The notes below the pieces were generated by a model. The model was not told the DNA's origin and searched no databases. It saw nothing but the letters and a program-made list of their open reading frames with translations. 64,000 bases of DNA. Source: an uncultured Cohaesibacter sp. GTDB taxonomy: Bacteria > Pseudomonadota > Alphaproteobacteria > Rhizobiales > Cohaesibacteraceae. Where the stretch lies: the NCBI RefSeq assembly GCF_963677725.1, contig NZ_OY782507.1, positions 3,197,001-3,261,000 of the forward strand, in the 5' to 3' direction. A program made the position numbers and the translations under genes. Position 1 is the first letter of the stretch, and each line of letters starts with the position of its first letter. Shown here piece by piece: positions 10,655 through 18,088 of the stretch.

Positions 10655-10670
10655 TGTCAGATAGTCGACA
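10655..10670. promoter_or_regulatory. NifA upstream activator site of nifB
   Basis: A perfect TGT-N10-ACA within TTGTC-N8-GACAA lies 67 bases before the -24 element of nifB. An IHF-like sequence with one mismatch to WATCAANNNNTTR lies between them at 10706-10718. Confidence 0.85.
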
Positions 10671-10735: not shown

Positions 10736-10751
10736 TGGCACGGCCCTTGCA
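10736..10751 (+). promoter_or_regulatory. Sigma54 (-24/-12) promoter of the nifB operon
   Basis: TGGCACGGCCCTTGCA is a perfect match to the consensus TGGCACG-N4-TTGCA. It should drive nifB-fdxN-fprA-fdx-FeSII-nifQ. Confidence 0.93.
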
Positions 10752-12686: not shown

Positions 12687-12697
12687 GGAGCGTGACG

Positions 12698-13957
12698 ATG
12701 AATTCCAACGCCAAACCAGTCGAGATCGCCAGAGACATCCATTGGATCGGGGCCTTTGATCCGGACTTGCGCGTGTTTGACCTGATTTTGAAGACCGCCA
12801 ATGGCACCACCTACAATGCCTATGTGGTGCGGGGCAGTGAAGGGGTTGCGATCATCGATACGGTGAAGGAGGAGTTTTCCGACGCTTTCTTTGAACGCCT
12901 CGAACAACTGGTTGCCTATGAGGACATTACCGCGGTCATACTCAACCACCTCGAACCGGACCATGTGGGCGCCGCACCGGAATTGATGCGCCGCGCACCG
13001 CAGGCCCGGATCTATGTCTCCAACCGGGGCCTTAAGTTGCTCAATGCGACACTGAAGGACGAGCTGGAAGATTATGCCTATACGTTGACCTGTGACGGAG
13101 ATCAGGTGTCGCTGGGTGACCGGACCCTGACATTCGTTCACACGCCCTATCTGCATTGGCCTGAGACCAAATGCACCTGGATAGAGGATGAGAAAATCCT
13201 GTTTTCCTGCGATGTCTTCGGCAGCCATTTCTGCGATGAGCGGCTCTATAACGATCTGGTCGGGGATTTCCGTTTTTCGTTTGAATATTATTTCAAGCAT
13301 ATCATGCGGCCCTTCAAGCGGTTTGTGCTGGAGGCGATGGACAAGATCGAGCCGCTAGCACCGGCCCTGATTGCCCCCTCCCATGGCCCGATCCTCAGGG
13401 ACAATCCGATGGACTATGTGCGGAGCTATCGCTCGCTGTCGGCCTCGCGGTTGCCCAACGAGCTGGAGGGCACAGACAAGAGCCTGCTGATCTTTTACAT
13501 GAGCGCCTATGGCGCTACCGCCGATATGGCCAGATCGGTCTATGAAGGGGCGAGCGCCGTCGGTGGCGTGCGTGTCTCGCTCTATGATTTGCAAGGGGGC
13601 GAGACCGAACCCTTCGTTGACCTGATCGAGGAAGCGGATTGTCTGGTTTTTGGCTCGCCGACCATCAATGGCGACGCGGTCAAACCGGTCTGGGACGTGC
13701 TGGCATCACTCATTTCCATCGACACCAAAGGCAAGATGGGAGGCGCGTTCGGCTCCTATGGCTGGTCCGGGGAAGCCGTGCCGATGATCGAGGACCGCTT
13801 GCGCGGCCTCAAGATGCGGGTGCCGGAAAAAGGCGTTCGGATCAAATTTCATCCAACCGATCAGGAGCTTGAAGATTGCTCGGCCTTCGGCCGGTCGATT
13901 GCCGAGTCCCTGTCCGGCAAGGCGAAGCCGAAAGTTGTCGACTTCGCAGACCTTTAG
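12698..13957 (+). CDS. fprA: Flavodiiron protein (FprA-type O2/NO reductase)
   Basis: The 419-residue protein starts at 12698, 7 bases after GGGAG. It has an N-terminal metallo-beta-lactamase-fold diiron domain (1-250) with H84-x-E86-x-D88-H89, H148/H153 in HTPYLHWPE, D172 and H229. A flavodoxin domain (about 257-405) follows, with FYMSAYGAT as the FMN phosphate loop. All expected diiron ligands are present, so it should reduce O2 (or NO) to water using FMN. It lies 11 bases after fdxN in the nifB operon, which makes nitrogenase protection or redox balancing the likely job. A similar nif-linked protein is known from Rhodobacter capsulatus. Confidence 0.9.
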   Translation: MNSNAKPVEIARDIHWIGAFDPDLRVFDLILKTANGTTYNAYVVRGSEGVAIIDTVKEEFSDAFFERLEQLVAYEDITAVILNHLEPDHVGAAPELMRRAPQARIYVSNRGLKLLNATLKDELEDYAYTLTCDGDQVSLGDRTLTFVHTPYLHWPETKCTWIEDEKILFSCDVFGSHFCDERLYNDLVGDFRFSFEYYFKHIMRPFKRFVLEAMDKIEPLAPALIAPSHGPILRDNPMDYVRSYRSLSASRLPNELEGTDKSLLIFYMSAYGATADMARSVYEGASAVGGVRVSLYDLQGGETEPFVDLIEEADCLVFGSPTINGDAVKPVWDVLASLISIDTKGKMGGAFGSYGWSGEAVPMIEDRLRGLKMRVPEKGVRIKFHPTDQELEDCSAFGRSIAESLSGKAKPKVVDFADL

Positions 13958-15435: not shown

Positions 15436-15780
15436 TCAGTCGGCGACTTTCTTGACGAATTCCGATTTCAGACCCATTGGCCCGATGCCTGGAATCTTGC
15501 AGTCAATATCGTGATCGCCACCAACAACGCGGATATTCTTCACCTTGGTGCCAACCTTGACCACGTCATTGGTGCCACGGATTTTCAGATCCTTGATGAC
15601 GGTGACGGTGTCGCCATCGGTAAGCGGCGTGCCATTGGCATCGCGAATGACATTGGCCGCTTCTTCGGCGGCGGCAGCGGCTGGCGACCATTCATGGGCG
15701 CATTCAGGGCAGATGATCAGGGGGCCATCTTCATAACAATAGGCCGAGCCGCATTTGGGGCAGGGTGGCAATTCGCTCAT
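15436..15780 (-). CDS. yjdM: YjdM/PhnA-type zinc-ribbon protein
   Basis: The 114-residue protein has an N-terminal zinc ribbon, [21 protein letters not shown], and a C-terminal beta domain with [15 protein letters not shown]. This is the pattern of E. coli YjdM, formerly PhnA, whose function is unclear despite its old phosphonate name. No NifA or sigma54 signal was seen upstream. It is inserted between nifQ and the SIR2-like gene and may be unrelated to nitrogen fixation. Confidence 0.88.
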
Positions 15781-15924: not shown

Positions 15925-16776
15925 TCAGGCAAAGGCTGCCGCGTGGGCGATATCGAGGAAGGCGGGCAGCTCCATTTCGATGATCTTGACGCCTTTTTTA
16001 GCGCAGTAGCGGCGCTCCTTGTCAGTGGGATTGGCAATCAAGGCCCAGCCCGCGTCTTGCCTTGCTGCGTGAATGATGTCCGACATCACCATCCGCTCGG
16101 TGTCACGGGTGAAGCGCATGCCCAGAAACAGATATTGTTTGGCCTTGCGGTAGTCCTTGAGGAAGGCTGGCACTCCGAAGCCGCCCATCAATTCGGTGAG
16201 ATAATCGACAAAATCCGCGTCCGACGCGATGTAGGTGGGGCGGGGCAGGGGCGAACCGAGCGGCTTGAACAGGACGGGCAGACTGGAATCTGCATCCTCA
16301 AGCGATTTGGTTTCGTAGCGCTCGCCGTCAAATTGATCGAGGATGAAGCGATAGTCCGTGCCGCCGATCCGGGCGATCCCCCTGACCAGCAGATGGGGCA
16401 CATCCTGATAGCTTTGCTGCAATTGCAGATCGCGGTTGATGTCGATGACATAGGCGGGCTTGAGGCTGGCCAGCCAGTCATGCAGGGCAGCGCGGCTCCA
16501 TTTTTCCTCGCCATAGAGTTTGGTCAGGAATTGTTCGATAAAGCGCCTGCCGCGTTTCAGCTCGATATTCATCGCGGCGCGGGGAAACTCATACATCAAT
16601 TTGGGTGCCATCGGCCGCCCTCTATTCATCGCCAGGATCAGGCTGTCGCTGTCGGCGGGCATCGGTTCGCCGCTCGGGTCGTGGCGTACATCAAACAGGA
16701 CGCCGGGGCCGAGATAGGGCACCACCGTGCCGGCTTTGACTTTTTCAATGATGGTTTCGATGTCTAACCGCTCCAT
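15925..16776 (-). CDS. SIR2-like protein with degenerate active site, under NifA/sigma54 control
   Basis: The 283-residue protein has a SIR2-type Rossmann pattern: VVPYLGPGV (18-26) in place of the sirtuin GAGIS loop, FKPLGSPL (170-177) where SIR2 domains usually have K-L-H-G-S, and YLFLGMRFTRDTER (215-228) as the late NAD-fold strand. The catalytic His is replaced by Pro-Leu, so classical deacetylase or NADase chemistry is doubtful, although NAD or ADP-ribose binding remains possible. A sigma54 promoter (16817-16832) and a perfect NifA site (16891-16906) precede it. It is divergent from nifH. The function is unknown, and the SIR2 assignment rests on motif pattern only. Confidence 0.65.
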   Translation of the reverse strand: MERLDIETIIEKVKAGTVVPYLGPGVLFDVRHDPSGEPMPADSDSLILAMNRGRPMAPKLMYEFPRAAMNIELKRGRRFIEQFLTKLYGEEKWSRAALHDWLASLKPAYVIDINRDLQLQQSYQDVPHLLVRGIARIGGTDYRFILDQFDGERYETKSLEDADSSLPVLFKPLGSPLPRPTYIASDADFVDYLTELMGGFGVPAFLKDYRKAKQYLFLGMRFTRDTERMVMSDIIHAARQDAGWALIANPTDKERRYCAKKGVKIIEMELPAFLDIAHAAAFA

Positions 16777-16816: not shown

Positions 16817-16832
16817 AGCAAGTTTCGGACCA
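16817..16832 (-). promoter_or_regulatory. Sigma54 (-24/-12) promoter of the SIR2-like gene
   Basis: On the minus strand it reads TGGTCCGAAACTTGCT, with GG-N10-GC and a perfect TTGCT -12 half. It lies 40-55 bases upstream of the SIR2-like start codon and about 60 bases from a perfect NifA site. Confidence 0.7.
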
Positions 16833-16890: not shown

Positions 16891-16906
16891 TGTCGCAAAA
16901 CGGACA
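16891..16906. promoter_or_regulatory. NifA upstream activator site for the SIR2-like gene (and perhaps nifH)
   Basis: A perfect TGT-N10-ACA within TTGTC...GACAA. Its distance fits the SIR2-like promoter (about 60 bases). It is about 200 bases from the nifH -24 element. Confidence 0.8.
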
Positions 16907-16990: not shown

Positions 16991-17006
16991 TGTGAATTCT
17001 ACGACA
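16991..17006. promoter_or_regulatory. NifA upstream activator site of nifH
   Basis: A perfect TGT-N10-ACA (CTGTGAATTCTACGACAA context) lies 102 bases upstream of the nifH -24 element. An IHF-like sequence with one mismatch (17077-17089) lies between. Confidence 0.85.

Positions 17007-17098: not shown

Positions 17099-18088
<990 letters not shown>

Follow-up and report, generated by a model that had tools for sequence, protein, structure and literature searches.

A probable pnfA-type member of the nif regulon in Cohaesibacter encodes a predicted SIR2-fold protein with an incomplete catalytic dyad

A minus-strand gene beside nifH (15925..16776) in DNA from an uncultured Cohaesibacter sp. encodes a 283-aa protein with a predicted SIR2 fold. 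Its best explanation, which we hold on balance to be probably correct, is that it is a pnfA-type pseudoenzyme of the nif regulon, activated by NifA and sigma54 and giving post-transcriptional support to nitrogenase in respiring cells. The stretch analyzed (hereafter, the window) is 64,000 nt long and corresponds to positions 3,197,001-3,261,000 of NZ_OY782507.1 in assembly GCF_963677725.1. The gene appears to be largely known already, the window gene being a new member of the pnfA-type genes. What is new here, judging from aligned sequences, is that the nif-linked SIR2 proteins seem to form one clade of two subfamilies, each of which has probably lost the catalytic dyad in a different way. Separate threads of the literature, on pnfA, Rcc03262, Msi351 and perhaps ZMO1821, appear to be joined in this one SIR2-fold nif-regulon clade. 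We found no open-licence PubMed Central paper that unites these nif-linked genes or notes the missing dyad, and the contribution made here is the pseudo-sirtuin identity, together with the split of the dyad loss between two sister subfamilies.

Promoter pair and genomic context

The initial annotation had placed a -24/-12 promoter and a NifA site of its own ahead of the gene, and both are there. The sigma54 -24/-12 promoter-like site, TGGTCCGAAACTTGCT, lies on the minus strand (16817..16832), 40 bases ahead of the start codon; it carries 10 of the 12 fixed consensus bases, and its position is conserved in relatives. The NifA upstream activator-type site TGT-N10-ACA, TGTCGCAAAACGGACA, is found at 16891..16906. 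The divergent neighbor, nifH, occupies 17204..18088 on the plus strand (TIGR01287, E 5.6e-143), and a motif scan located its -24/-12 site, TGGCATACCCCTTGCA (17107..17122, plus strand), and a second TGT-N10-ACA site on the nifH side of the gap (16991..17006). The 427-base gap between the two genes thus holds one promoter pair for each. Elsewhere in the window, further TGT-N10-ACA sites at 10655, 23900 and 28500 precede -24/-12-like sites at 10736, 23960 and 28584, respectively, and these pairs resemble promoters that would serve nifB, nifE and the genes beyond 28600.

Single motifs of these kinds are common (48 -24/-12 sites with at least 9/12 matches on both strands of the window, and 520 occurrences of TGT-N10-ACA genome-wide); they are therefore weak alone, and conservation in relatives decides. 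We examined 80 relatives, 58-73% identical to the window protein, with start codons assigned by script; they are the best 80 of 280 found, a choice that favors subfamily I and leaves out weak relatives. Within 350 bases upstream, a -24/-12 site was present in 62/80 and a NifA site in 70/80, and the pair, with the NifA site 30-200 bases upstream of the -24/-12 site, preceded 59/80, compared with 6.94, 5.62 and 0.16 of 80, respectively, expected from first-order Markov shuffles. The pair also stands before four of five further subfamily I loci. Among the loci that lack it are some from methanotrophs, where the gene is preceded on its own strand by nifQ and ferredoxin genes and may therefore be transcribed from an operon promoter. 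For subfamily II, none of the 12 upstream regions examined (L090-L094 left out) had a promoter pair of its own.

As the initial annotation had suggested, we surveyed whether homologues sit beside nifH. Gene clusters around the loci were built from mechanical open reading frames, antisense ones included, the named ones being checked by Pfam and c0 (see below) by alignment. A nif or dra marker occurred in 65/80 related loci; nifH was in view at 49/80 and was divergent from the SIR2-like gene at all 49, and 13 of the 15 marker-free loci belong to genomes that have nifH. In the class sample, a relative (E up to 1e-10) was present in 6/289 genomes and nifH in 9/289, all six falling within the nine (hypergeometric p 1e-10). 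In the phylum sample, the corresponding numbers were 21/397 and 43/397 with an overlap of 18 (Fisher p 1e-16). Each sample counts the genome of the window itself, and the two share G000, G034, G035, G041 and G207; because related genomes are not independent, these p values overstate the case. Two of the three carriers without a nifH match (G322 and G473) have nifA, nifB and nifT around the SIR2-like gene, and the third (G345) lacks any nif gene in the 12-kb stretch read, while its copy has the promoter pair. The gene was absent from 25/43 nifH genomes of the phylum sample and is therefore accessory rather than core.

In the genomic stretches read for subfamily II, nifB and/or nifT were nearby. 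Rhizobium etli p42d has, in this order, nifA, nifB, a gene for a 4Fe-4S protein (ferredoxin), nifZ, nifT and the SIR2 gene, whose product is 27% identical to the window protein and 55% to a subfamily II member, L093. Among plasmids, 72 records matched the window protein, all below 60% identity and mostly from Rhizobium. In Rhodobacter capsulatus, the SIR2-like Rcc03262 is reported as the last gene of the operon nifB1-rcc03265-nifZT-rcc03262, with values in the wild type and the entry NF, which we take as not found, in a nifA mutant (PMC6925177). Similarly, Msi351 of Mesorhizobium loti R7A, described as prokaryotic sirtuin-like, belongs to the operon nifB-fdxN-nifZ-fixU-msi351 (PMC3538637), and Rhodovulum nif operons are reported to contain a SIR2-like gene (PMC9412634). 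The conserved promoter pair, the co-occurrence with nifH and the published NifA dependence of PST1325/pnfA and Rcc03262 together suggest that the window gene is, as was originally proposed, a true member of the nif regulon.

Several neighbors were recorded as well. In many beta- and gamma-proteobacterial loci, the SIR2-like gene is followed by a gene of about 185 codons that we call c0 (e.g. L038:8847-9404; 28/80 loci); its product matched nothing in Pfam and, at E 0.001, no fold in the PDB, and its model had a pLDDT of 86.5. Directly downstream of the window gene is a YjdM/PhnA-type zinc-ribbon gene (15436-15780, minus strand; TIGR00686, 142.7 bits), for which tblastn at E 1e-8 found no match in the 80 related loci, and which therefore looks like a local neighbor. 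A hemerythrin-domain gene adjoins or lies near the SIR2-like gene in other loci (L050:9415-9792; also L010 and L012), with an Hr match in 30/80; these loci include close relatives of the window; in the window itself, the YjdM-type gene occupies that place. A gene located between nifB and those for the nif ferredoxins encodes a flavodiiron-type protein (12692-13957, plus strand), whose best NCBIfam match, below its cut-off, is the anaerobic nitric oxide reductase flavorubredoxin and whose relatives occur in 25/80 loci; it may serve the nif cluster by removing O2 or NO.

Predicted fold and catalytic positions

The 283-residue open reading frame is present on the minus strand as described in the initial annotation, and starts with ATG. 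PF13289 (SIR2_2) matched the window protein with 29.3 bits, against a curated cut-off of 24.5, and also matched 36/39 aligned family members; searches up to E 10 returned nothing else from Pfam and no match from NCBIfam. An AlphaFold2 model built from a 39-row alignment had a pLDDT of 93.7 and a pTM of 0.92. Structure prediction followed by a fold search had been proposed as a check on the SIR2-like character, and with an E limit of 0.001 Foldseek gave 95 matches in the PDB, of which the best 50 were all DSR2, ThsA or KomC; among these 50, the best E was 3.7e-10, TMq was 0.54-0.66, rmsd 4.4-7.1 and identity 12-15%. The PDB had no match to the window protein by sequence alone, a search with the family profile gave only weak matches (KomC, E 0.034-0.055), and a viral fold library gave nothing at E 0.001. 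The Pfam match above its cut-off and the fold of the model agree with the SIR2-like character first noted, and we consider the predicted resemblance in fold to be real. The dN/dS ratio was 0.017-0.319 in 12/13 family pairs, several with a saturated dS (>1), the remaining pair giving no dS; such low values indicate that the gene is under constraint (purifying selection).

SIR2 NADases use an Asn and a His for catalysis (N112/H152 in ThsA, equivalent to N133/H171 in DSR2), and mutating the His is reported to decrease DSR2 activity (PMC11263360). In the window protein, the Asn is retained as N114 within D112-I-N-R-D116 (codons at 16429..16443, minus strand), which replaces the T-T-N-Y-D loop. The K-x-H-G motif is replaced by K171-P-L-G-S175 (codons at 16252..16266, minus strand), with Leu at position 173, a position assigned as the catalytic His column by the alignment, where K-P-H-G of subfamily II fills these columns, rather than by superposition. 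The earlier reading of K-L-H-G-S as K-P-L-G-S, with loss of the His, therefore holds.

The same positions were then compared across a family alignment of 102 members, counted after removal of the window copy L089 and the repeats L101-L104, with the near-identical pairs L105/L106 and L109/L110 retained. Subfamily I (86/102, window included) has Asn at residue 114 in 86/86, and at residue 173 Met in 71, Leu in 13, Val in one, Thr in one and His in none. Subfamily II (16/102) has Trp at residue 114 in 16/16, and at residue 173 His in eight, Leu in three, Tyr in two, and Ser, Trp and Ile in one each. The full Asn-His dyad was thus found in 0/102 members. Pro172 is invariant (102/102), as are G23, E72, R77, H99, G174, R210, G219 and R228; D112 is present in 100/102 and D116 in 101/102. 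In the tree, the nif-linked members form one group (100/99), with subfamily I supported at 100/98 and subfamily II at 96/99; its 45 rows comprise 14 subfamily I, 13 subfamily II and 18 other proteins, several of the latter long-branched, and the root is arbitrary. Among the non-nif SIR2_2 proteins of the class sample, both catalytic motifs occurred in 14/26, the Asn motif in 18 and a K-x-H-G-type motif in 19 (one being K-L-N-G), by a coarse motif test on open reading frames chosen by position, which used 30 of 31 SIR2_2 matches (one was without a locus), 4/30 of them nif members. A second SIR2_2 protein of the same genome, outside the window (G000:C1:268926-269360, L155), keeps T-T-N-Y-D and K-I-H-G-S and offers a natural contrast to the nif-linked copy.

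These counts bear on the idea that the protein is a working NAD-dependent deacylase or NADase with nitrogenase or NifA as its target, as has been proposed for ZMO1821 of Zymomonas mobilis. The Zymomonas protein, also SIR2-like, is encoded in a nif island between nifA and nifHDK, and its authors guess that it is a deacetylase (PMC8600466, PMC8594446); its level increases during N2 fixation, and in that organism acetylation is seen on NifA and on nitrogenase subunits (PMC8600466). Besides these reports, the SIR2 annotation speaks for such activity, ZMO1821 itself being compared by description. However, Asn and His never occur together in the 102 members, although 8/16 subfamily II members keep the His, and the effect of the His mutation on DSR2 points the same way. 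In addition, the classical sirtuin Pfam model was unmatched by the window protein up to E 10, and a single Cys among its 283 residues leaves no zinc tetrad of the classical sirtuins. The incomplete dyad in 102/102 argues against the published deacetylase guess, and we regard an active enzyme as improbable. The related suggestion in the initial annotation, a nitrogenase modifier acting by sirtuin chemistry, likewise seems unlikely because the dyad is broken. This cautions against calling nif-linked SIR2 proteins deacetylases.

Since the closest folds, taken from the best 50 of the 95 matches, are those of the defence NADases DSR2, ThsA and KomC, the ancestor of the protein may have been one. 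A phage-defence NADase captured beside nif, as had also been suggested, is nevertheless very improbable: the window protein matched 0 families of the PADLOC defence models up to E 10, the dyad is incomplete in 102/102, the members form one nif-linked clade found mostly in nif contexts, and the promoter is of NifA type.

A possible role in respiring cells

The gene resembles pnfA (PST1325) of Pseudomonas stutzeri A1501, which is described as lying opposite to nifH with a -24/-12 site and TGT-N10-ACA, and as NifA/RpoN-dependent by qRT-PCR (PMC2820453). In the same report, a non-polar pnfA mutant had 23% nitrogenase activity, the lowest among nine mutants (complementation is given as data not shown), the nifH transcript was unchanged, and nitrogen-free medium still supported growth. 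Activity was wild-type-like in plain anaerobiosis but fell sharply at 0.5% O2 and in the presence of nitrate (PMC2820453). The pnfA phenotype is therefore one that requires an electron acceptor and not O2 as such. The authors distinguished two PnfA subfamilies, saw a likeness of the protein to UspA/ETF-alpha and suggested a part in electron transfer or in protection against oxygen; we found no mention of SIR2 in that paper's text (PMC2820453). A later paper calls PST_1325 a SIR2 family protein (PMC11332353), and in engineered Escherichia coli PST1325 was up 9-fold under fixation conditions (PMC6053447). In two related loci (L053 and L068), the order nifH, SIR2-like gene, c0-type gene and nifY/X-type gene corresponds to PST1326, 1325, 1324 and 1322. 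From position, promoter, annotation and gene order, rather than from a sequence comparison, we infer that the window gene is the ortholog of PST1325.

On this basis, we propose that NifA and sigma54 would turn on the SIR2-like gene together with nifH. Given that the full Asn-His dyad is missing, the product would most likely work as a binding protein, that is, a pseudoenzyme, rather than hydrolyze NAD or remove acyl groups. In line with the NAD or ADP-ribose sensor suggested in the initial annotation, the retained pocket may bind NAD(H) or ADP-ribose as a gauge of the respiratory state, and the ligand-bound protein may contact nitrogenase or its electron supply; acting after transcription, it would keep nitrogenase fully active during respiration with O2 or nitrate. 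A nucleotide-binding pseudoenzyme fits both a PnfA defect that is post-transcriptional and acceptor-dependent and a SIR2 fold with an incomplete dyad. The direction of the effect, the ligand and the partner in this sensor model are those that we infer. However, three facts count against it: Msi351, which belongs to subfamily II by context, is reported to be disruptable, the mutant being fully effective and without a symbiotic phenotype (PMC3538637); the pnfA mutant still grows without fixed nitrogen; and the gene is missing from more than half of the nifH genomes in the phylum sample.

The strongest competing reading is that the protein matures or protects the nitrogenase proteins, in a way similar to NifZ or NifW; the SIR2 fold would then be a mere scaffold and nucleotide binding irrelevant. 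Subfamily II genes accompany nifB, nifZ and nifT in R. etli p42d, R. capsulatus, M. loti and other genomes, a setting as compatible with maturation as with a sensor, and the P. stutzeri defect, which is post-transcriptional and appears with O2, is also in favor. On the other hand, a role purely in O2 protection fails to explain this defect, because nitrate without O2 also causes it, and the invariance of the pocket glycines and charged residues also speaks against it. We treat this rival as possible but doubtful.

A different view of the same conserved residues is that the clade is re-tooled rather than dead, with E72, R77, H99, R210, R228, D112 and D116 forming either an NAD pocket that senses redox state or a novel active site, for NAD-linked, DraT-independent control of nitrogenase. 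Such control would account for the restriction of the PnfA effect to conditions with an electron acceptor, and for the 10/18 nifH-bearing carriers of the phylum sample, this genome included, that have no DRAT match; even so, we think it rather unlikely. The A1501 paper reports finding neither DraT nor DraG in that strain (PMC2820453). In beta-proteobacterial loci, draT and draG are often near the gene (DraT in 24/80, DraG in 22/80 and both in 17/80). Among the 43 nifH genomes, DRAT was found in 8/18 carriers and 18/25 non-carriers (Fisher p 0.11), which shows neither dependence on DraT/DraG nor exclusion.

If the pnfA-type pseudoenzyme reading is correct, an uncharacterised nif gene becomes a testable claim, namely that a catalytically incomplete sirtuin supports nitrogenase in respiring cells. 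The transfer of nif clusters to new hosts may also need an accessory gene of the pnfA type, since the P. stutzeri mutant had only 23% of wild-type activity (PMC2820453).

Comparison with known systems

PnfA is the closest known system. It shares with the window gene the divergent position from nifH, the -24/-12 site with TGT-N10-ACA, a mass of about 31.7 kDa, the SIR2 annotation and the occurrence in diazotrophs (18/21 carriers in the phylum sample and 6/6 in the class sample have nifH), although the window genome belongs to another class. Rcc03262 and Msi351 are likewise SIR2-like and lie in NifA-controlled operons; unlike the window gene, they end operons of the nifB-nifZ-nifT type and belong to subfamily II by context, with R. 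etli p42d as the sequence stand-in. ZMO1821 can be likened to the window gene by description, as a SIR2-like gene of a nif island that is up under N2 fixation. Finally, DSR2, ThsA and KomC share the predicted fold of the window protein (Foldseek E down to 3.7e-10), whereas the window protein has neither the catalytic His nor an extra effector or sensor domain, and its gene has a NifA-type promoter.
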